A stretch of DNA of 64,000 nt from the NCBI RefSeq assembly GCF_003076755.1, contig NZ_QDKM01000002.1:496001-560000 (forward strand), given 5' to 3'. Shown here piece by piece: positions 52,037 through 60,937 of this stretch. A program made the translations under genes and the position numbers. Origin of the DNA: Pararhodobacter oceanensis. GTDB taxonomy: Bacteria > Pseudomonadota > Alphaproteobacteria > Rhodobacterales > Rhodobacteraceae. The notes beneath the pieces are model-generated. The model was not told the DNA's origin and did no database searches. It was given only the letters and a program-made list of their open reading frames with translations. Each line of letters opens with the position of its first letter. The first letter of the stretch is position 1.

Positions 52037-52349
52037 GGCCGCCGGACGGTTGATCGGGCTTGGCGCGGGGGTGGATGATCGCCCTCGCGCCAAATCGCTG
52101 GCCGCATCGCAAGTTGTATCTGGTCTGGGGCGTGAAAGACCCACGCCCGAGTGAGCGCACTGGCGATTTTCCCCTGAACAGGATGTGCGGGTTTTACCGG
52201 CTTGTAATCAGAACTGGGCGTAAAACCGGCGCGACTGAATTGTTTTCAAATCAACCTATAGTTGAAAGTTTTTGCGCTGAGCAGCGATAAAACCCACCGC
52301 TAGCTACCTTCAAAAACCTCTCCCTTCCACGCCAAAAATATAATCGCCC

Positions 52350-52379
52350 TTGACTGGACGCGAGCGGGTCTGGTTAACT
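52350..52379 (+). promoter_or_regulatory. Promoter candidate of the amiC operon
   Basis: TTGACT (52350-52355), 18 bp, TTAACT (52374-52379). The predicted transcript begins near 52386, immediately before the leader hairpins. The sequence CCCTTGAC recurs at the promoter before the peptide ABC transporter. Confidence 0.55.
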
Positions 52380-52389
52380 ACACGTATTC

Positions 52390-52455
52390 AGGGATTTCCC
52401 GAAGGCATTCAAGCCTCGCCCTCGACCGCGTGTTGCGCAGTCGAGGGCGAGGCTT
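52390..52455 (+). promoter_or_regulatory. ANTAR-type antitermination leader candidate, copy 1
   Basis: In order: hairpin GGG-ATTT-CCC (52391-52400); hairpin AGGC-ATTCAA-GCCT (52403-52416) with a six-base loop; and a 16-bp perfect stem AAGCCTCGCCCTCGAC / GTCGAGGGCGAGGCTT (52411-52426, 52440-52455). The second hairpin shares bases with the left arm of the large stem, so the two are mutually exclusive. The large stem ends 9 bases before the ribosome site but has no clean T-tract. The same architecture occurs at 55304-55377. Confidence 0.5.
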
Positions 52456-52474
52456 GTCATTGTGGAGGGTGGCA

Positions 52475-53569
52475 ATGCGGCGGCAGATCGAAATTGGCTT
52501 GCTGTTCTCGTGCACAGCAAGCTACGGGCTGATTGCCGCGGCAGGCCGCGCCGGCGCATTGCGCGCGATCGACGAGGTTAACGCAGACCCCGCGTTTGAC
52601 CTGACCTTCATCCCCGTTGAGCGTGATCCGCAGGGCAATATCGACCTCTATCAGCCGATGTGCGCCGAGATCCTGCGCAGCACCAATGCGCGCCATGTGA
52701 TCGGCACGACCACCTCCTGGAGCCGCAAGGAAGTGATCCCGACGCTGGAAAAAGCCGGTGGAATTCTGTGGTATCCCTGCCCGCATGAGGGGTTCGAGGC
52801 CTCGGATCATGTGGTCTATATGCATGCCTGTCCGAACCAGCATTTGGTGCCATTGATGGACTGGGCGCTGCCGCGCTACGGGCGGCGCGCCCATCTGGTC
52901 GGTTCGAACTACATCTGGGGATGGGAGATCAACCGCGTCGCCCGCGATCTGGTGATGGGCTCGGGCGGCACCGTGCTGGGCGAGCGCTATCTGCGGATCG
53001 GTGACACCGATGTGGCGCGGATGATCGAGGAAATTCGCGCGACACGGCCTGATTTTGTGCTGAATTCGCTAATTGGTTCATCATCTTACGCGTTTCTGGC
53101 GGCGATGGCGGAGTTGCGGCGCGAGGATAGCGCCTTTGCCGGTGGCAAGATGCCGGTGCTCTCATGCAACCTGACCGAATGCGAACTGCCGAAACTGGGC
53201 GCGGATGCCGAGGGGTTGATCTCGGCGGGGCCGTATTTCCACGGCGCGGCGGGATGGCCCGGGGACGGGCGGGTGTTTGCCTCATCCTTCGAGGCCGCGG
53301 CCTATGTGTCGGTGCGCGCTTTGGCGGGGCTTTTGGCGCATCGTCCGGGGGCCGAGATGCTCTGTCTGCGCAGCCTGCTGGACCAGCCGAAAGAGGCGCG
53401 TTTCGGCATCGACCGCGCGACCCATCACGTGACGCTACCGGCGCTGATCGCCGAGGTGCAGCAGGGGCGGTTCGAGGTGGTTTCAGCCCGCGACGGGGTT
53501 GAGCCAGACCCGTATTTGTCGCGGCGTAGCAATAGGTTACATCCCAATCTTACGGTGGTGACGCCATGA
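52475..53569 (+). CDS. AmiC-like amide sensor (periplasmic-binding-protein fold)
   Basis: A 364-residue cytoplasmic relative of branched-chain/urea binding proteins, close to AmiC, which senses short amides and holds the antiterminator AmiR inactive. There is no signal peptide: it starts MRRQIEIGLLFSCTASYGLI, then AGALRAIDEVNADPAF, TTTSWSRKEVIPTLEKAGGILWYPCPHEGFE and NYIWGWEINRVARDLV, a pattern of AmiC/UrtA-like proteins. GGAGGGTGG precedes the ATG. It overlaps the ANTAR gene by 4 bp, as amiC-amiR should. Confidence 0.82.
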   Translation: MRRQIEIGLLFSCTASYGLIAAAGRAGALRAIDEVNADPAFDLTFIPVERDPQGNIDLYQPMCAEILRSTNARHVIGTTTSWSRKEVIPTLEKAGGILWYPCPHEGFEASDHVVYMHACPNQHLVPLMDWALPRYGRRAHLVGSNYIWGWEINRVARDLVMGSGGTVLGERYLRIGDTDVARMIEEIRATRPDFVLNSLIGSSSYAFLAAMAELRREDSAFAGGKMPVLSCNLTECELPKLGADAEGLISAGPYFHGAAGWPGDGRVFASSFEAAAYVSVRALAGLLAHRPGAEMLCLRSLLDQPKEARFGIDRATHHVTLPALIAEVQQGRFEVVSARDGVEPDPYLSRRSNRLHPNLTVVTP

Positions 53570-54153
53570 AGCAAAAGATATTTATTCCCGAGTTCGGCGG
53601 CGCGCGGGCGGTGATCCTGCACCGGCCACATCCGACGGTAGACTCGCTGTCCCGCCAGTTGCGCGCGATTGGTCTTAGCGTCGAGGCGCATTGGCCGGAA
53701 TTGCCCGCCTCGGTGATGCTGGCCGACTACTTGTTTTTCGACGCGGATATGGGCTGCGACGAGCAGTTTCCCTGGCCCGCGGGCGAGGCGCCGATGCCGA
53801 TGATCGCGCTGATCGGCTCCGAGGCGCCGGGGCGGATCGAATGGGCGCTGTCGCATAATGCGGCGAGCAAAATTCTCAAGCCGGTGGGCGATGGCGGCGT
53901 GTTCAGCGGGCTGTTGATCGCGCGCCAGACCTATGATGCGCGCAAGGCGATGGCGGCTGAAATTTCGGATCTGCGTGCCCGATTGTCCGAGCGTCAGACC
54001 GTGGTGCAGGCGGTGATGTTACTGGCGCGCAACGCGGGCAGCGAGGACCGCGCCTATGATCAGCTGCGCCAAATGGCGATGTCTTGGCGGGTCAATATCG
54101 AAGAGGCCGCGCAGCGCGTCGTGGCCATGGGGCTGGCGGCGAAACGCGCCTGA
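53566..54153 (+). CDS. AmiR-like ANTAR-domain antiterminator
   Basis: A 195-residue RNA-binding antiterminator. A pseudo-receiver domain (about 12-120) lacks the usual phosphorylation Asp cluster; a coiled coil (AAEISDLRARLSERQ) leads to the C-terminal ANTAR three-helix domain, VVQAVMLLARNAGSEDRAYDQLRQMAMSWRVNIEEAAQRVVAMG, with the diagnostic A-Y-x2-L-R-x2-A-M. It is released by the AmiC-like sensor when the amide binds and should act on leader hairpins that overlap terminators; two such leaders are nearby. Confidence 0.88.
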   Translation: MKQKIFIPEFGGARAVILHRPHPTVDSLSRQLRAIGLSVEAHWPELPASVMLADYLFFDADMGCDEQFPWPAGEAPMPMIALIGSEAPGRIEWALSHNAASKILKPVGDGGVFSGLLIARQTYDARKAMAAEISDLRARLSERQTVVQAVMLLARNAGSEDRAYDQLRQMAMSWRVNIEEAAQRVVAMGLAAKRA

Positions 54154-54208
54154 AGCCAGCAAATGGCCCACCGAACCTATTGAGTTGTAAGGAGATAAAC
54201 GGAAGACC

Positions 54209-55168
54209 ATGTGTAAGAACCACGATTACACCATCCATGGTGCGCAGCATCACTTTGGCTGGGACAACTCGATTGCGCCGGTGCAGCGCGCCGAGCCGGG
54301 CTCGACGATCCTGTTTCACTGCAAGGATAGCGCCGCTGGGCAATTGGGGCCGAAATCAACCGTCGCCGATGTTGCGGCGCTGGATTTCAGCCGGATCAAT
54401 CCGGTGTCGGGGCCGGTCTATGTTGAGGGCGCGGAGCCGGGTGATGCGCTGAAGATCACCCTCGATAGTTTCGTGCCGCAGGCCCGCGACGGCGCCGGTT
54501 TTGGCTGGACCGCGAATATTCCCGGCTTTGGTTTGTTGACCGATCAGTTCACCGATCCGGCGCTGCATATCTGGAAATACGACACCTCGACGATGGCGCC
54601 GGCGATGTTCGGCAAGGAGGGGCGGGTGCCGCTCAAGCCCTTTGCTGGGACCATCGGCAATGCCTTGGCCGAACCGGGGATGCACTCGATTGTGCCGCCG
54701 CGCCGGGTGGGTGGAAATCTCGATATCCGCGACCTTTCGGCCGGCACCACGCTCTATCTGCCGGTCGAGGTGGCGGGGGCGCTGTTCAGCGTCGGCGACA
54801 CCCATGCGGCGCAGGGCGATGGCGAGGTTTGCGGCACCGCGATCGAGAGCCCGATGGATGTGGTGTTAACCATAGACTTGGTTAAGGACGCGCGGTTGAA
54901 GTTCCCGCGATTCACCACGCCGGGGCCGGTGACCACCCATCTTGATGCCAGGGGCTATGAGGTCACCACCGGCATCGGGCCGGACCTGATGGGCGCCTGC
55001 CGCGATGCGGTGGCGGGGATGGTCGACTTCCTCTGTGCGACGCGGCAGATGGCGGCGGTCGATGCCTATATGCTGGTTTCGACCTGCGGCGACCTGCGGA
55101 TTTCGGAAATCGTCGACCAGCCGAACTGGGTGGTCTCCTTCTACTTTCCGCGTTGTGTTTTCGAGTGA
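54209..55168 (+). CDS. Acetamidase/formamidase family amidohydrolase
   Basis: Hydrolyses formamide, acetamide or a related small amide to ammonia and the acid; 319 residues of the FmdA/AmdA family. Landmarks: HHFGWDNSIAP at 14-24, VEGAEPGDALKITL near 72-85, IPPRR-like VPPRRVGGNLDIRDLSAGTTLYLPV and VGDTHAAQGDGEVCGTAIE near 198-216 with metal-binding His/Asp/Glu. AAGGAG precedes the ATG. Third gene of the amiC-amiR operon. Confidence 0.9.
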   Translation: MCKNHDYTIHGAQHHFGWDNSIAPVQRAEPGSTILFHCKDSAAGQLGPKSTVADVAALDFSRINPVSGPVYVEGAEPGDALKITLDSFVPQARDGAGFGWTANIPGFGLLTDQFTDPALHIWKYDTSTMAPAMFGKEGRVPLKPFAGTIGNALAEPGMHSIVPPRRVGGNLDIRDLSAGTTLYLPVEVAGALFSVGDTHAAQGDGEVCGTAIESPMDVVLTIDLVKDARLKFPRFTTPGPVTTHLDARGYEVTTGIGPDLMGACRDAVAGMVDFLCATRQMAAVDAYMLVSTCGDLRISEIVDQPNWVVSFYFPRCVFE

Positions 55169-55262
55169 TCACCGGAAACTGTTAAAAAATCCCCGATTCT
55201 CACAAAAACACGCGGAAATCGGATGTAAAAACAAAGGTTAACCAGATCACTTATATTAACCC

Positions 55263-55291
55263 TTGACGTGGGCTGGGGTGATCTGCATCCT
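55263..55291 (+). promoter_or_regulatory. Promoter candidate upstream of the ABC operon terminator
   Basis: TTGACG (55263-55268), 17 bp, CATCCT (55286-55291), predicting transcription from about 55299. It shares CCCTTGAC with the amiC promoter and lies before, not after, the terminator at 55330. Confidence 0.5.
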
Positions 55292-55303
55292 TTAACCAAC
55301 ATG

Positions 55304-55377
55304 AGGGTGCTTGCACCTTTTCGGCACTCGAGCCCGGACTTTCCTCTTTTTGGGGGTGAAGTCTGGGCTCTTTTTTT
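55304..55377 (+). terminator. Leader terminator with overlapping antiterminator hairpin, copy 2
   Basis: Hairpin AGGGT-6 nt-ACCTT (55304-55319) is followed 3 nt later by hairpin GGC-ACTCGA-GCC (55323-55334). The terminator stem GAGCCCGGACTT (55330-55341) pairs with AAGTCTGGGCTC (55359-55370; 12 bp, one G-U) and is followed by seven T (55371-55377). The small hairpin and the terminator share bases 55330-55334, so only one can form. It would also end readthrough from the formamidase gene. Confidence 0.75.
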
Positions 55378-55468
55378 GGGAAAACTCCGATGACGTCATA
55401 TTTGAACCTGTGCGGAATTCTCCAGACTCACGCGGCGCGATTCTGCGGTCACAGCGGAGGTGTTCCCG

Positions 55469-56494
55469 ATGCCAGTTGAGCGCAATATCGTGCTGGAGGT
55501 CGACAACCTCCAGACCCATTTCAGCACCGATGAGGGCGTGGTGCGCGCGGTTGACGGGGTCAGCTTTCAGTTGGAAGCGGGCAAAACGCTGGCGCTGGTT
55601 GGCGAGTCCGGTTCGGGCAAATCCGTCACCAGCCTGTCGATCATGCGGCTGTTGCAAAAAGGCGTCGGGCGGGTGGCTGGCGGGCGCATCCTGTTTGAGG
55701 GCCGCGATCTGGCCGCACTGACCGAGCCCGAGATGCGCCGCGTGCGGGGCAAGGATATTGCCATGGTGTTTCAGGAACCGATGACCAGCCTGACGCCGGT
55801 TTATACGGTGGGCGACCAGATTGCCGAGGCGATCATGGCGCATGAGCCGATCAGCAAGCGTGCGGCACGGGCGCGGGCGGTGGAATTGCTGGAAACGGTC
55901 GGCATCCCCGAGCCTGCGACCCGTGCGCGCGCTTATCCGCACCAGCTTTCGGGCGGTATGCGGCAGCGGGTGATGATCGCGATTGCGCTGGCCTGCAACC
56001 CCAAGGTGCTGATTGCCGACGAGCCGACGACGGGGCTGGATGTGACCATTCAGGCGCAGATCCTCGATCTGATGCGGCGGCTGCAAAAAGAGACCGGCAT
56101 GGCGATCCTGTTCATCACTCATGACTTGGGCGTGGTGGCGGAAATGGCTGACCGGGTGCTGGTGATGTATGCCGGACGCACCGTCGAGGAGGCGGCGGTC
56201 GAGCCCCTGTTTGGCGAGCCGCGGATGCCCTATACGCAGGGGCTGATGGCCTCGATCCCGCGATTGGGCTCGGCGCCTGAAGGCGTCTCGCATCCGCGAT
56301 TGCAAGCGATTCGCGGCAATATTCCCAGCCCGCGCAACCTGCCGCAGGGCTGCGCTTTTCATCCACGTTGCGAGCATGCCAGCCCCGATTTCTGCACGCA
56401 CAACGTGCCCGCGCTCGAGGATAGCGGCATGGGGCATATGGTGCGCTGCGCCCGCTGGCGTGACGTTTTGCAAACTGCACAGGTGGCCCCATGA
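55469..56494 (+). CDS. Dipeptide/oligopeptide/nickel-type ABC transporter ATPase (DppD/OppD-like)
   Basis: A 341-residue ATPase: Walker [19 protein letters not shown] near 42-58, signature [15 protein letters not shown], Walker [13 protein letters not shown], and the C-terminal oligopeptide_HPY extension with [11 protein letters not shown] cysteines (possible Fe-S site). The ATG follows GGAGG eight bases upstream. It overlaps the second ATPase gene by 4 bp. Confidence 0.93.
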
Positions 56495-57513
56495 CCGGCT
56501 CCGCCCTTTTGAAACCCACCGATAACAGCGTCGCAGAACCGGCTGACGAGGCGCTCTTGTCGGTGCGCAATCTCTGCACCTATTTTCCCGTGCGCGGGGC
56601 CACGCCTTTTGCGCCCAAACGGGTGGTGAAAGCGGTGGACAACCTGTCGCTGGAAGTCGGGCGCGGCAAGATCGTCAGCATTGTCGGCGAGTCCGGCTCG
56701 GGCAAGACCACCGCTGGACGCTCGATCCTGCGGCTGATCGAGCCGACCTCGGGGCAGGTGATGTTCGACGGTATGGATCTGGGCCAGTTGGGGCCGCGCG
56801 CCCTGCGTGATGCGCGGCGCAAGATGCAGATCATTTTCCAAGACCCGTTCGCCAGTCTGAACCCGCGGATGAGCATCGGCGGGATCATTGCCGAGGGGCT
56901 GAAACTGCACAGTATCGGCGAGGGCCGCGCCGACCAGCGTGACCGCGTCGCGGCGCTGCTCGAACGCGTGGGGCTGAGCGCCGATCACATGCGCCGCTAT
57001 CCGCATGAGTTCTCGGGTGGCCAGCGCCAGCGGGTGGGCATTGCCCGTGCCTTGGCGGTGGAGCCGGATTTCATTCTGGCCGATGAACCGGTCTCGGCGC
57101 TGGATGTGTCGATTCAGGCGCAAGTCCTCAACCTGTTGCAGGATCTGCGCGAGGATCTGGGGCTGACGATGGTGTTCATCGCCCATGATCTGAGCGTGGT
57201 CGAATACCTCTCGGACCGTGTCGCGGTGATGTATCTGGGGCGGATCATGGAGATCGCCGATGCGCGCGATCTCTACGCCAACCCGCAGCATCCCTATACC
57301 GAGGCGCTGCTCTCAGCGGCGCCGATCCCCGAGCCGGGGGCGGCGCGCAACCGCATCATGCTCAAGGGCGAGACACCCTCGCCGATTGATCCGCCTTCGG
57401 GCTGTGTGTTTCGCACCCGTTGCCCGATTGCCGGGCCGGAATGCGCGACGACGACGCCCGACCTCAAGCCTTTGGGCAAGGGCCATTCGGTCGCCTGCCT
57501 GAAGCGCGGTTGA
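56491..57513 (+). CDS. Dipeptide/oligopeptide/nickel-type ABC transporter ATPase (DppF/OppF-like)
   Basis: A 340-residue partner ATPase: N-terminal LSVRNLCTYFPVRGA, Walker A GESGSGKTTAGRSILRLIEP, signature FSGGQRQRVGIARAL, Walker B FILADEPVSALD and C-terminal GCVFRTRCPIAGPEC. Heterodimerises with the preceding gene product. The binding protein gene follows after 60 bp. Confidence 0.93.
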   Translation: MTGSALLKPTDNSVAEPADEALLSVRNLCTYFPVRGATPFAPKRVVKAVDNLSLEVGRGKIVSIVGESGSGKTTAGRSILRLIEPTSGQVMFDGMDLGQLGPRALRDARRKMQIIFQDPFASLNPRMSIGGIIAEGLKLHSIGEGRADQRDRVAALLERVGLSADHMRRYPHEFSGGQRQRVGIARALAVEPDFILADEPVSALDVSIQAQVLNLLQDLREDLGLTMVFIAHDLSVVEYLSDRVAVMYLGRIMEIADARDLYANPQHPYTEALLSAAPIPEPGAARNRIMLKGETPSPIDPPSGCVFRTRCPIAGPECATTTPDLKPLGKGHSVACLKRG

Positions 57514-57573
57514 GCCTGCGCCGCGCGCGCAGGGCCTGACCATAACAACAACAACGACGTCAACGAGGAGAAG

Positions 57574-59103
57574 ATGATGAAACGCTTTACCCTTCTTTCG
57601 ACGGTTGCGAGCTTTGCTGCCACTCTGGCGCTTGCCGCACCGGTCTGGGCGGATTCGCCCCTGCGCGGTGGCATCCTTCAGGTCGGTCTGGCCGATGATC
57701 CGCCCGAGCTGGACCCGCATCTGAGCAGCTCGAACGCCTCGCGCACCATCCTGCACAACATCTTCGCGACGCTGGTCGAGGTGGATGACAAGCTGCAGAT
57801 CCAGCCGGAACTGGCCGAGCGTTGGGAGGTCAGCGAGGATGGCCGCCAGTATACATTCTATCTGCGCGACGGGGTGAAGTTCCACGACGGCACCACGCTG
57901 GATGCCGATGCGGTGGCGTTCAACTTTGACCGGATGCGCGACGCCGATGAATTCGGCTCGGCCCGCGCAGGTGAGTTGGCCTTTGTCGAGGACGTGAAGG
58001 TTGACGGCCCGCTGCAAGTCACCGTGACCCTCAGCCAGCCCTACGGCGGTTTTCTGCCGGCGCTGGCCAGCTGGTCGGGGATGATTGTCTCGCCCACGGC
58101 TGTCGAAGAGCATGGCCGCGATTTCGGGCAGGTGCTGGTGGGGGCGGGGCCGTTCCGCTTTGTCAACCGCATCCGCGACGACCGTGTGGTGCTCGAGCGG
58201 TTTGACGAGTATTTCAAGGACGGTCTGCCGTATCTGGACGGGGTGGTCTACCGCCCCTTTGTGGATGCCGAAGCGCGGATTGTGAACCTTGAGACCGGCT
58301 CGATCCATATCATCAATACGGTGCCGGGCCGCGCGGTGAACCGCCTGCAAGAGAGCGAGGATATCAACCTGTCGATCGTCGGCGGGCTGGGGTTTCGCGG
58401 GATCTGGGTCAACGTCGACTCCGATGAGCTGGGTTCGCGTGAGCGCCGCGCCGCGCTTTCGGCCTGTATCGACCGCCGCGTGGTGGTGAATAGCATCTTT
58501 GGCGAGGCCGCGGTGCCTGCCGTGGGGCCGTTCTCGCCCGCGACCTGGGTGGTCGATAGCGCCGAAGAAGCGCCGCACCGCGATGTTGACGCCGCGCGCG
58601 CTGCGCTGGCCGAGGCAGGGGTGCCCGACGGGTTTTCCTTCCCGCTGTTGATCACACCGGATGACGAGAGCATCCGCGTCGCCTCGATCTATGCGGCGAT
58701 GTGCTCGGAGGTGGGTATCGACATCCAGCTGCAGCAGGTCGAATTCGGCACCATCCTGTCGCGTATGGCCGAGGGCAATTACGCCGGTGCGCAGATCGAG
58801 TTGAGCCCGCGCAACGACCCCGATCTGAGCGCGCATCCGTGGTTCCATTCGAGCGGTGGGGTGAACTTTAGCCACTACGCCAGCCCCGAGATGGACCGTG
58901 TGCTTGATGAGGCCCGTGCGGCGGTCGATCAGGGTGAGCGTCGTGCGCTGTATCGCGAGGCATTGGAGCTGTTCAACACCGACTTCCCCTATGTCTTTGT
59001 CTACCATCTGCAAGAGATGAAAGCGCACCGCGCCGAGATGATGGGCTACCGCCACATCCCGGATTCGATGATGCGCTTCGAAGACGTCTGGCTGCAGGAC
59101 TGA
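57574..59103 (+). CDS. Family 5 extracellular solute-binding protein
   Basis: A 509-residue periplasmic binding protein of the DppA/OppA/NikA class. Signal peptide MMKRFTLLSTVASFAATLALA with cleavage near VWA-DS. The family start GGILQVGLADDPPELDPHLSSSNASRTILHNIFATLVEVDD and LAERWEVSEDGRQYTFYLRDGVKFHDG are clear. GAGGAGAAG precedes two successive ATGs. Ligand unknown; the amidase operon upstream suggests an amide or short peptide. Confidence 0.93.
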   Translation: MMKRFTLLSTVASFAATLALAAPVWADSPLRGGILQVGLADDPPELDPHLSSSNASRTILHNIFATLVEVDDKLQIQPELAERWEVSEDGRQYTFYLRDGVKFHDGTTLDADAVAFNFDRMRDADEFGSARAGELAFVEDVKVDGPLQVTVTLSQPYGGFLPALASWSGMIVSPTAVEEHGRDFGQVLVGAGPFRFVNRIRDDRVVLERFDEYFKDGLPYLDGVVYRPFVDAEARIVNLETGSIHIINTVPGRAVNRLQESEDINLSIVGGLGFRGIWVNVDSDELGSRERRAALSACIDRRVVVNSIFGEAAVPAVGPFSPATWVVDSAEEAPHRDVDAARAALAEAGVPDGFSFPLLITPDDESIRVASIYAAMCSEVGIDIQLQQVEFGTILSRMAEGNYAGAQIELSPRNDPDLSAHPWFHSSGGVNFSHYASPEMDRVLDEARAAVDQGERRALYREALELFNTDFPYVFVYHLQEMKAHRAEMMGYRHIPDSMMRFEDVWLQD

Positions 59104-59160
59104 CCCTAACACCGGCTGCGGCGCAATCTGTGCCGCAGCCCCCAAACCCTCTGGAATACC

Positions 59161-60105
59161 ATGCTGGTTTTTATCTTTCGCCGTTTGCTCGGTATCTTGC
59201 CGATCCTGTTCCTGATCACCCTCGCGGTGTTTCTGGTGATGCAGGTATTGCCGGGGGATCCGGCGCTGATGATCCTTGGCACCGAGGCCACGCCCGAAGC
59301 GCTGGCGGCGATCCGCGAGCGCTTGGGTCTGAACCAGCCGCTTTATATGCAGTATCTGAGCTGGATCGGAAACGTGTTGAGCGGCGATCTGGGCCGCTCG
59401 ATGGTCGATAACTCGCCGGTCTCGCGGGCGATCCTCTATGCGCTGCCGGTGACCTTGCAGATCAGCTTTCTGGCGATCCTGATCGCGCTGGTGATCGGCG
59501 TGCCGGCGGGGGTCATCGGTGCCACCCGTCGCGGCGGTATCGGCGATACGGTGGTCAGCCTGATCGGGTTTTCCTGCATCTCGCTGCCCGGATTCTGGGT
59601 GGCGATCCTGCTGCTGTATGTGCTCTCGCTCTATCTGGGGTGGCTGCCGTCCTCGGGGTTTGTGCGGCTGCATGAGGATTGGATCGGCAGTCTGCAAACC
59701 TCGATCATGCCGGCGATTGCGCTGGGCCTGCGGCCGGCGGGGATTTTCATGCGGCTGGTGCGCTCGTCGATGCTGGAAGCGATGAAATCCGACTATGTGC
59801 GCACCGCCCGCGCCAAGGGCATCACCGCGATGAAGGTGACCCTGCGCCACGGGCTGCGGACCTCGCTGATCCCGCTGTTGACCGTGCTCAGCGTCGAGTT
59901 TGCCGCGCTTTTGGGCAATGTGGTGGTGATCGACACGATCTTTGGCCTGCCGGGCTTCGGGCGGCTGATCTACAACTCGGTTCTGCGGCTGGATCTGACG
60001 ATGATGCAAAGCCTCGTGTTGATTTTCGCGGTCTCGGTGATCTTGATTAACCTGTTGACGGATGTGGCTTATTTCATCCTCGACCCGCGCATCAAGGAGC
60101 GCTGA
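59161..60105 (+). CDS. Peptide-type ABC transporter permease (DppB-like)
   Basis: A 314-residue permease with six helices. N-terminal FIFRRLLGILPILFLITLAVFLVMQVLPGDPA and LGLNQPLYMQYLSWIGN are DppB/GsiC-like, and the EAA loop SDYVRTARAKGITAMKVTLRHGLRTSLIP is near 220-248. The next permease begins 1 bp after the stop. Confidence 0.93.
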   Translation: MLVFIFRRLLGILPILFLITLAVFLVMQVLPGDPALMILGTEATPEALAAIRERLGLNQPLYMQYLSWIGNVLSGDLGRSMVDNSPVSRAILYALPVTLQISFLAILIALVIGVPAGVIGATRRGGIGDTVVSLIGFSCISLPGFWVAILLLYVLSLYLGWLPSSGFVRLHEDWIGSLQTSIMPAIALGLRPAGIFMRLVRSSMLEAMKSDYVRTARAKGITAMKVTLRHGLRTSLIPLLTVLSVEFAALLGNVVVIDTIFGLPGFGRLIYNSVLRLDLTMMQSLVLIFAVSVILINLLTDVAYFILDPRIKER

Positions 60106-60106
60106 G

Positions 60107-60937
60107 ATGGACCGTTTGCTGGTAAAAATGCGCGGCAAGCCTTTGGGCGCGCTGGGGCTGTTGATCGTGATTCTGCTGGTGTTGGTGGCGATTTTTGCGC
60201 CGCTGCTGGCGCCCTATAACCCGACCGACCCCGACTTTATGGCGATGCTGCAGGGGCCGAGCGATCAGTATATCTTGGGCACCGATGAATTGGGCCGCGA
60301 TATGCTCAGCCGCCTGATCTGGGGCGCGCGCGCCTCGCTGCAAGCGGGGCTGATTGCGGTGATCCTTGCGGCGGGGATCGGGGTGCCGATTGGGCTGATC
60401 TCGGGGTATTTCCGTGGGCCTCTGGACGAATATGTGGTGATGCGGCTGACCGATGCGATGATGGCATTTCCGGTGATCGTGCTGGCGCTGGCGCTGACCG
60501 CGATCATGGGGCCAAGCCTGTCGACGGCAATGGTCGCCATCGGCATCGTCTATGCGCCGATCTTCATCCGGCTGGCCCGTGCCCAGACCCTGAGCGTGCG
60601 CGAAACCGAATATGTCGAGGCCGCGCGCGCCCTTGGCAACCGTCATATCGGCATCATGATCAAACATGTGCTGCCCAATATCGCCAGCCCCCTGATCATC
60701 CAGATGTCGGTGAGCATGGCGACGGCGATTCTGGTGGAAAGCGCGCTCAGCTTTCTAGGTCTTGGCGTACAACCGCCGACGCCAAGCTGGGGCTCGATGC
60801 TGCGGATCGGCACCAACTATATGCAAGAGGCGCCGTGGATTGCCTTCTGGCCCGGTCTGGCGATCTTTGTCGCGGTCTTGGGGATCAACCTGTTCGGCGA
60901 TGCCTTGCGCGACGTGCTGGACCCGCGCGACAGGTAG
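60107..60937 (+). CDS. Peptide-type ABC transporter permease (DppC-like)
   Basis: A 276-residue second permease: N-terminal helix LGLLIVILLVLVAIFAPLLAPYNP, TDELGRDMLSRLIWGARASLQ near 62-82, EAA loop TEYVEAARALGNRHIGIMIKHVLPNI and the ending FLGLGVQPPTPSWGSML. AAGGAG lies six bases before the ATG. Last gene of the transporter operon. Confidence 0.93.
   Translation: MDRLLVKMRGKPLGALGLLIVILLVLVAIFAPLLAPYNPTDPDFMAMLQGPSDQYILGTDELGRDMLSRLIWGARASLQAGLIAVILAAGIGVPIGLISGYFRGPLDEYVVMRLTDAMMAFPVIVLALALTAIMGPSLSTAMVAIGIVYAPIFIRLARAQTLSVRETEYVEAARALGNRHIGIMIKHVLPNIASPLIIQMSVSMATAILVESALSFLGLGVQPPTPSWGSMLRIGTNYMQEAPWIAFWPGLAIFVAVLGINLFGDALRDVLDPRDR

Follow-up and report, generated by a model that had tools for sequence, protein, structure and literature searches.

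The window, a 64,000-nt stretch of Pararhodobacter oceanensis DNA (GCF_003076755.1, contig NZ_QDKM01000002.1, positions 496,001 to 560,000 of the forward strand), carries amiC-amiR-fmdA followed by oppD-oppF-oppA-oppB-oppC, and all of the features described below, given in window coordinates, lie on its forward strand. The amiC gene (52475..53569) encodes an amide/urea-type sensor (Peripla_BP_5) whose nearest solved chain was AmiC 1pea (E 2.2e-41) and whose relatives also include urea-binding proteins. It overlaps amiR (53566..54153) by 4 nt. The AmiR protein combines an AmiR_N pseudo-receiver and an ANTAR domain in a single protein (PF21332, 39.6 bits, and PF03861, 40.7 bits, both above cut-off), and matched the solved AmiR 1qo0 with E 3.3e-7; no other ANTAR match was found in the genome. 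The original prediction had placed an ANTAR gene between two matching leaders, and amiR was confirmed as this gene, lying in the operon behind the first of them. The fmdA product (54209..55168) belongs to the acetamidase/formamidase family and scored below the formamidase equivalog cut-off, and the five opp genes (55469..60937), which lie behind the second leader, encode a peptide/nickel-type ABC transporter.

Paired leaders before amiC and oppD

Leader 1 precedes amiC and leader 2 precedes oppD. Each was found, as proposed earlier, downstream of a predicted promoter whose first hexamer lies within CCCTTGAC: a sigma-70-like promoter at 52350..52379 (TTGACT, 18 nt, TTAACT; start predicted near 52386) and a second at 55263..55291 (TTGACG, 17 nt, CATCCT; start predicted near 55298). 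The 12-mers GGCATTCAAGCC (52404-52415) and GGCACTCGAGCC (55323-55334) were identical at 10 of 12 bases and are predicted to fold as GGC-AUUCAA-GCC and GGC-ACUCGA-GCC, a hairpin (HP2) with A at loop position 1 (A1) and C at position 4 (C4) in both leaders. The order of the elements was also the same, with a small hairpin (HP1) ending 2-3 nt before the 12-mer and a large stem whose left arm overlaps it. HP1 was GGG-AUUU-CCC in leader 1 (52391..52400, shorter than the HP1 counts below required) and GAGGGUG-CUUG-CACCUUU in leader 2 (55303..55320). The large stem of leader 1 (52410..52456) is terminator-like, with 17 bp and a tail holding no T-run longer than 2, and that of leader 2 (55330..55377) folds as a terminator, followed by T7.

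Folding z-scores for the full leaders were -8.4 (leader 1) and -5.1 (leader 2). The RNA ending at the 12-mer formed two hairpins in each case and folded barely better than shuffled sequences (z -2.1 and -1.1, with 8 and 31 of 200 shuffles, respectively, folding equally well). By itself, GGCANNCNNGCC is not rare, with 18 occurrences in the window versus 8.4 expected. A simple consensus scan listed neither the promoters nor the terminators of the two leaders. Rfam families reaching the gathering score in the window were limited to two tRNAs, with no relevant family among them, and the three matches at E <= 5 within 52250-55480 were all unrelated; the covariance search for the Rfam ANTAR dual-hairpin family that had been suggested as a check gave no relevant match.

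Conservation of HP2 and the terminator stem

The other suggested check, an alignment of leaders across relatives, showed the 12-mer and its hairpin to be conserved. Within this AmiR subfamily, GGCA-N5-GCC overlapping a terminator-like stem was present in every one of the 62 distinct amiC leaders that were counted and in 5 of 5 second leaders; the element was also present in 31 relatives of one set and 27 of 27 loci of another, and one set gave 35 of 35 leaders compared to 1.3 expected by chance. In each of the 67 leaders, a stem of 6 to 21 pairs began in the 3' half of the 12-mer, the only region searched. Because leader starts were placed either with the 12-mer pattern or by eye, the count is not a blind finding; it means that no examined amiC leader beside an undegraded amiR of this group lacked the 12-mer. 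Excluded from the 62 were a locus with degraded genes and no 12-mer before amiC (L007) and leader 1 of a genome with a decayed amiR (G003, locus L124), in which loop A1 was lost and G stands instead (GGCGTCCACGCC). Four duplicates were removed from the leader count, L041, with a broken amiR, was left out of the tree while its leader was retained among the 62, and L010 and L011, from another AmiR group, were kept out of the first leader counts. One search gave 39 AmiR matches, and loci were taken for all but 9 of these (one of the 9, G379, being covered as L088); several lower matches of a further search were left out of the leader sample.

The terminator stem had 96.2% of cells paired and 9 double changes, and on five measures the observed value was reached by 0 to 15 of 500 shuffles. 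Because the HP2 stem never varies, there was no covariation for the antiterminator hairpin itself. From a 31-row MAFFT alignment, RNAalifold recovered HP2 alone, probably because the terminator arms were misaligned, and a covariance model (R2) was therefore trained on 19 better-aligning leaders of relatives, with the window left out. The elements in combination proved rare: within the 64 kb, R2 gave its two highest scores to leader 1 (28.8 bits) and leader 2 (25.8 bits), with the next match at 15.4. It matched 12 of 12 held-out Thioclava-type leaders, in a search that gave 39 matches at E < 0.02, 20 of them training rows or their copies. In another set of 27 loci it recognized every amiC leader at E <= 0.5, two of these being duplicates of held-out leaders. 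It found four of the five second leaders, missing that of G003. Two element-bearing amiC leaders, L057 and L058 (also seen as L088 and L089), were missed as well, as was leader 2 in whole-genome searches in which scoring covered 150 of 4765 candidates in one case and 88 of 4525 in the other. A loose pattern found 34 places genome-wide versus 14 for the reversed control, and among the 30 of these 34 that were rescored, only leader 2 exceeded 12.2 bits, which is a partial test of genome-wide uniqueness. A 17.8-bit genome match, C2:614728, was rejected as a tRNA followed by a terminator.

We considered whether the leaders might simply be ordinary inter-operon terminators, with the 12-mer forming the terminator base and having no relation to AmiR. 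The GCC half of the 12-mer does belong to the terminator stem, and GGCANNCNNGCC is common in this GC-rich DNA. However, GGCA is not part of the terminator helix in the R2 model and yet was invariant in the 67 leaders counted, and both window leaders place the element downstream of a predicted promoter. When 60 genomes were searched with R2, E <= 0.05 was reached only in the 5 that carry an AmiR orthologue (E <= 1e-40); 3 of these 5 supplied training rows, so the weight of this test rests on the other 55, of which 4 showed only E 0.09-0.40. An origin as ordinary terminators is, in our judgment, highly improbable.

The missing T-tract of leader 1, already pointed out in the original prediction, was borne out and proved unusual, since the 2-nt T-run was the shortest, and the tail the poorest, of the 67 leaders. 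Leader 1 may therefore be leaky or no terminator at all. Set beside the T7 of leader 2, this would agree with only leader 2 working as an attenuator: leader 1 would have lost termination here, amiC-amiR-fmdA would thus be expressed without amide control, and AmiR would gate uptake alone. Leader 1 nevertheless retains HP2, its 17-bp stem is perfect, its R2 score is the highest in the window, and a long GC-rich stem may still give partial termination. Moreover, the element is retained in all four other leaders with a T-run of only 3 (L004, L003_lead1, L107 and L109). Attenuation by leader 2 alone is the less probable outcome, and we rate it as unlikely.

HP1 and the case for a single hexaloop

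A hairpin ending no more than 8 nt from HP2 was found in 44 of the 67 leaders, compared to 11.6 +/- 2.9 in shuffles (maximum of 21 in 200 rounds), and 42 of the 44 had a linker of no more than 4 nt. Such an excess would fit a canonical dual-hairpin ANTAR target, in which HP1 would be a recruitment hairpin with a relaxed loop, like EutV P1, and HP2 the antiterminator. When a laxer 3-bp stem was allowed, a hexaloop hairpin was also possible within 12 nt in 32 of the 67 leaders, 16 of them with A1. Against this, the best HP1 loops ranged from 3 to 9 nt, and a hexaloop with both A1 and G at position 4 (G4) occurred in 5 of 67. Among the 41 leaders with an exact TTGAC, 11 had the promoter 43-47 nt before HP2, which, from the predicted starts, leaves 8-12 nt of RNA and therefore too little for HP1. 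We regard a dual-hairpin target as doubtful, and the earlier description in terms of paired hairpins with six-base loops fits this AmiR family poorly because HP1 is not a conserved hexaloop. A strict scan of 12 loci of the other AmiR group for canonical A1/G4 dual hexaloops found none.

Position 1 of the HP2 loop was A in all 62 amiC leaders and in all five second leaders, with that A being part of the search pattern. Position 4 was C in 48, T in 6, A in 6 and G in 2 of the 62 amiC leaders, and C in all five second leaders. The C at this position, which had been counted against the original prediction, is a feature of the family and not noise.

The AmiC-AmiR/amiE system of P. aeruginosa likewise has an AmiC sensor, an AmiR with pseudo-receiver and ANTAR domain, an antiterminator overlapping a terminator, and an amidase target. 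The window differs from this Pseudomonas aeruginosa amidase operon in having a second leader before a transporter, and amiE belongs to a different amidase family than fmdA. Compared by description, the amiE leader has two hexaloops, both with A1 and G4, in the available part of the published account (PMC3369931), whereas the window has an A1/C4 HP2 and an HP1 that is not conserved. In Enterococcus faecalis, the eutP/G/S/A leaders likewise supply one ANTAR protein, EutV, with several leaders per locus, and EutV P2 overlaps the terminator, as HP2 does. As far as the available text of two reports goes, EutV requires a fixed linker as well as both hexaloops, each with A1 and G4 (PMC3369931; PMC8934654); this G4 is absent from the window HP2 loops, which carry C4. 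The latter report, in the same part, describes EutV as a phosphorylated response regulator and AmiR as having a pseudo-receiver (PMC8934654). In an alignment with numbering matched by eye, AmiR retained the equivalents of EutV Tyr164, Arg168 and Met172, together with those of Arg142, Glu160 and Arg175, while the EutV contacts Lys143, Lys147, Lys149, Asn173 and Arg177 aligned with Gln, Gln, Val, Ser and Asn. A specificity switch pairing Lys149-to-Val with G4-to-C4 was dropped, since other AmiR proteins whose residue in that column is Thr, Val or Ile (L075, L078-L082 and L084, by eye) adjoin G4 HP2 leaders.

Putative control of hydrolysis and uptake by one sensor

Taken together, these comparisons suggest, with a probability that we put at roughly 85%, that both leaders are AmiR-controlled attenuators through which one sensor drives the amidase operon and uptake. 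Across the AmiR subfamily, the overlap of the hairpin with the predicted terminator is conserved, a second copy is present where the operon is split, and the predicted terminator stem covaries. Comparison gives good support to the original proposal of AmiR-type control over both units, through the 62 amiC and 5 second leaders and through relatives in which the transporter is part of the amiCR operon. The mode of action is apparently AmiR-type ANTAR antitermination built on one hexaloop. Without ligand, AmiC would hold AmiR, the large stem would form in the nascent RNA, and transcription would stop ahead of amiC at leader 1, where termination would probably be leaky, or ahead of oppD at leader 2, where it would be strong. 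With an amide-like ligand bound to AmiC, AmiR would be released and would bind the loop of the GGC-ANNCNN-GCC hairpin; HP2 would then occupy the GCC required by the terminator stem, so that polymerase would read on at both the amidase operon and the uptake genes.

A broader proposal, whose odds we see as evenly balanced, is that a large alphaproteobacterial AmiR family antiterminates via a single A1/C4 hexaloop, with the 12-nt hairpin sufficient and lying in some clades 8-12 nt from the transcript 5' end, and that the second copy came to precede a transporter when one lineage split the operon and took on another transporter. If true, a single-hexaloop A1/C4 switch would be in conflict with the rule drawn from EutV, which calls for two hexaloops and G4 stacking. 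The portion of PMC8934654 available gives one hexaloop as the minimal ANTAR-binding site, with two still needed for antitermination, and asks to what extent single hexaloops are used. This family provides dozens of natural leaders, some with space for only one hairpin, together with two matching leaders within a single genome, making the single-hexaloop question directly testable.

A search of the open-licence literature found no account of RNA leaders for the amiC-amiR-opp-fmdA family. In Klebsiella sp. KOS9, a plasmid operon combines amiC-amiR-amiE with an ABC transporter (PMC13209695), and there, as in the window, AmiCR adjoins an amidase together with transporter genes presumed to import the amide; the available part of that account describes one operon and mentions neither an RNA element nor a second leader (PMC13209695). 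The arrangement also differs among closer relatives. In one group (L014-L041, with titles including Thioclava, Paracoccus, Roseobacter and Jannaschia), related AmiC, AmiR and FmdA proteins are encoded behind an amiC leader of the same kind, but transporter and amidase share a single operon with one leader, ordered amiC-amiR-oppC-oppB-oppA-fmdA-oppD-oppF in the 26 of 28 loci extending as far as the fmdA-oppD junction. The transporter of the window and of four other genomes is instead a separate, weakly related set with its own leader, and the second element was present in all five. The regulon apparently formed by placement of a second short RNA switch before a different transporter. Between the single-operon relatives and the window, the transporter proteins were about 25-61% identical, compared to 67-80% for FmdA.

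Genes and structure of the two window leaders

From position 52475 the genes run amiC (Peripla_BP_5), amiR (AmiR_N + ANTAR), fmdA (FmdA_AmdA), oppD, oppF, oppA, oppB and oppC, and one ANTAR match was obtained in the 4.08-Mb host genome. The nearest solved relative of the AmiC was AmiC 1pea (E 2.2e-41), with urea-binding proteins also among its relatives, and those of the AmiR were AmiR 1qo0 (E 3.3e-7) and then EutV 6wsh (E 0.002); among records with names, the top AmiR matches had titles from Rhodobacteraceae/Paracoccaceae. FmdA scored under the formamidase equivalog cut-off, and the transporter (55469-60937) was a peptide/nickel-type Opp set.

Leader 1, before amiC (12-mer at 52404-52415), and leader 2, before oppD (12-mer at 55323-55334), both had the layout originally described: TTGAC is followed by a small hairpin (HP1), a spacer of 2-3 nt, a hairpin formed by the 12-mer (HP2, GGCA-N5-GCC) and a large stem that overlaps the 12-mer with its left arm, the GCC of HP2 being common to both structures. 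Their 3' ends were likewise as described, with T7 at the end of the leader 2 terminator and no T-tract in leader 1, where the longest T-run, behind a 17-bp stem, was 2 nt. RNAs ending after HP2 folded into two hairpins (-7.7 kcal/mol for leader 1 and -10.2 kcal/mol for leader 2), by a slight margin over shuffles (z -2.1 and -1.1, respectively). The folds of the complete leaders contained the terminator, at -48.6 kcal/mol (z -8.4) for leader 1 and -38.6 kcal/mol (z -5.1) for leader 2. When the whole of leader 2 was folded, the 5' halves of HP1 (GGGUGCU) and HP2 (GGCACUC) paired with each other across 55305-55329, so the terminated form may dismantle both small hairpins. Within the window (1-64000), GGCANNCNNGCC occurred 18 times, twice as often as the 8.4 predicted by dinucleotide shuffles, perhaps owing to the codon usage of GC-rich genes.

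Conservation and covariance of the element

An AmiR search of GTDB genomes yielded 28 loci, and the gene order was amiC-amiR-oppC-oppB-oppA-fmdA-oppD-oppF in 26, those that reached the fmdA-oppD junction. In these relatives the transporter, amidase and amiCR genes thus form one operon with one leader. GGCA-N5-GCC followed by a terminator stem was present in all amiC leaders of 31 relatives (the 28 plus L004, L005 and L006), and the 12-mer was found in 35/35 leaders versus 1.3 expected by chance. A family-wide search of 394 genomes gave 39 AmiR hits and loci for 30 of these, 27 with new locus ids, and all 27 carried the element. After six leaders were added from a phylum-wide search and four duplicates removed, 67 distinct leaders were counted, 62 before amiC and 5 second leaders; two degraded loci were omitted, L007, in which the 12-mer before amiC was absent, and leader 1 of G003. 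Conservation of the 12-mers in orthologous leaders, proposed as a check of the original prediction, was thus observed in all 67 as GGCA-N5-GCC, with G-G-C-A and G-C-C invariant across leaders that were located using that same pattern.

A covariance model, R2, was trained on 19 relatives' leaders (alignment A2), with the window, L003 and 12 Thioclava-type leaders held out. Of the cells in its terminator stem, 96.2% were paired, with 9 double changes, and the values observed on five measures were reached by 0, 5, 2, 15 and 0 of 500 shuffles. HP2 was without covariation because its stem never varies. In the 64-kb window the two leaders ranked first and second (28.8 and 25.8 bits; next match, 15.4). 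R2 found 12/12 held-out leaders and the amiC leader in 27/27 later loci (E <= 0.5), 2 of which duplicate held-out leaders. Over 68 loci (457,681 bases), the 39 matches at E < 0.02 were all family leaders with the 12-mer, and 20 were training rows or their copies; the amiC leaders of L057 and L058 were missed there, though the element is present (read in L088 and L089). Among 60 genomes, matches at E <= 0.05 occurred only in the five with an AmiR orthologue, three of which (G023, G027 and G036) had contributed to the training set. Of the remaining 55 genomes, four had matches at E 0.09-0.40. With no more than 88 candidates scored in each genome, this search missed window leader 2, as did the search of its own genome (150 of 4765 candidates scored).

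The split operon and its second leader

The amiC-amiR-fmdA arrangement with a separate oppD unit was found in the window, G014, G778, G473 and G003, the last with decayed amiC and amiR, and GGCA-N5-GCC plus a terminator lay between fmdA and oppD in all five. R2 found the second leader in four (25.1-43.0 bits), missing that of G003, and gave no match at E <= 1 at the fmdA-oppD junction of the single-operon loci L014-L041. In a quick AmiR tree (61 rows), the four split genomes with intact amiR clustered and the arrangement changed once (SH-aLRT 93). Opp proteins of G014, G778 and G473 were 74-87% identical to those of the window, versus about 25-61% for single-operon relatives, whose FmdA was 67-80% identical. 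This contrast points to a different transporter behind the second leader, for which we infer replacement or recruitment; the transporter substrate is uncertain, since the window Opp set is so far from that of single-operon relatives despite a highly conserved FmdA.

The draft genome of the genus-mate G003 (80% complete) has truncated or frameshifted versions of amiC, amiR and the first opp frame (L124, G003:C145:9150-12275); fmdA and leader 2 were apparently intact. Leader 1, GGCGTCCACGCC, beside the decayed amiR, kept its stem and terminator and had lost the A at loop position 1 (A1), the loop starting with G. This state reflects either a locus in decay or an assembly fault.

Hairpin number and the proposed mechanism

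AmiR-type control of both units through paired six-base-loop hairpins had been proposed. Control of both units was supported by the element before amiC in 62 leaders and in 5/5 second leaders; the paired form was not, the conserved unit being one hairpin, HP2. The C noted at HP2 loop position 4 in place of G (C4, G4) proved to be a feature of the family, occurring in 48 of 62 amiC leaders (T 6, A 6, G 2) and 5/5 second leaders. HP1 is a real feature, found in 44/67 leaders versus 11.6 +/- 2.9 in shuffles, with a best loop of 3 to 9 nt; with a laxer 3-bp stem, a hexaloop was possible in 32/67 (16 with A1, 5 with A1 and G4). Exact TTGAC, present in 41 leaders, lay 43-47 nt before HP2 in 11, 51-63 nt in 29 and 93 nt in one. 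Promoters and transcript starts are predictions, and in the 43-47-nt class the predicted transcript holds 8-12 nt upstream of HP2; 10/11 lacked HP1 by our criterion, and the eleventh (L103) has a hairpin ahead of the predicted start. Two starred clades of the AmiR tree (6 and 5 rows) consisted of HP1-less leaders, the clade of 5 having no exact TTGAC by which to fix starts. Across all rows of the tree the HP1 state changed 11 times or more, which marks the criterion as noisy.

Two reports on EutV leaders describe a requirement for two hexaloops, with A1 and G4 in each, at a set spacing (PMC3369931; PMC8934654). Here A1 is kept in HP2, but C4 replaces G4. The ANTAR domain retains residues aligned with Arg142, Glu160, Tyr164, Arg168, Met172 and Arg175 of EutV but lacks equivalents of Lys143, Lys147, Lys149, Asn173 and Arg177 (numbering by eye). 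Two features that define the dual-hexaloop RNA family as described, G4 and paired hexaloops, are thus absent here. The window leaders, which from sequence would work like AmiR/EutV antitermination, are therefore called a new variant of it; we recognised no earlier description of these amiC-amiR family leaders in the open-licence literature searched. The best reading is that both window units are controlled by AmiR-HP2 antitermination. AmiC would bind a putative amide-like ligand and set AmiR free, and the freed AmiR would bind HP2, letting polymerase through because HP2 and the terminator have GCC in common. Uptake would be gated strongly by leader 2; for sensor and amidase, the gate formed by leader 1 would be weak or leaky.

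In a second AmiR group (L075, L078-L082 and L084), the leader follows amiR and precedes the next operon. By eye, HP2 there was GGC-UNNGNA-GCC (U1, G4) followed by a terminator in 7/7 loci, with an upstream hexaloop hairpin carrying A1 in 5/7 and A1 and G4 in 3/7. An R2 match of 27.6 bits at L159 (G030:C1:2511127-2511188, minus strand), had TTGAC, GGCAACAAAGCC and a terminator. An ANTAR gene belonging to the other AmiR group is about 4 kb away, an aliphatic-amidase-like frame (called by eye) runs divergently from the match, and a 448-aa frame lies behind the match.
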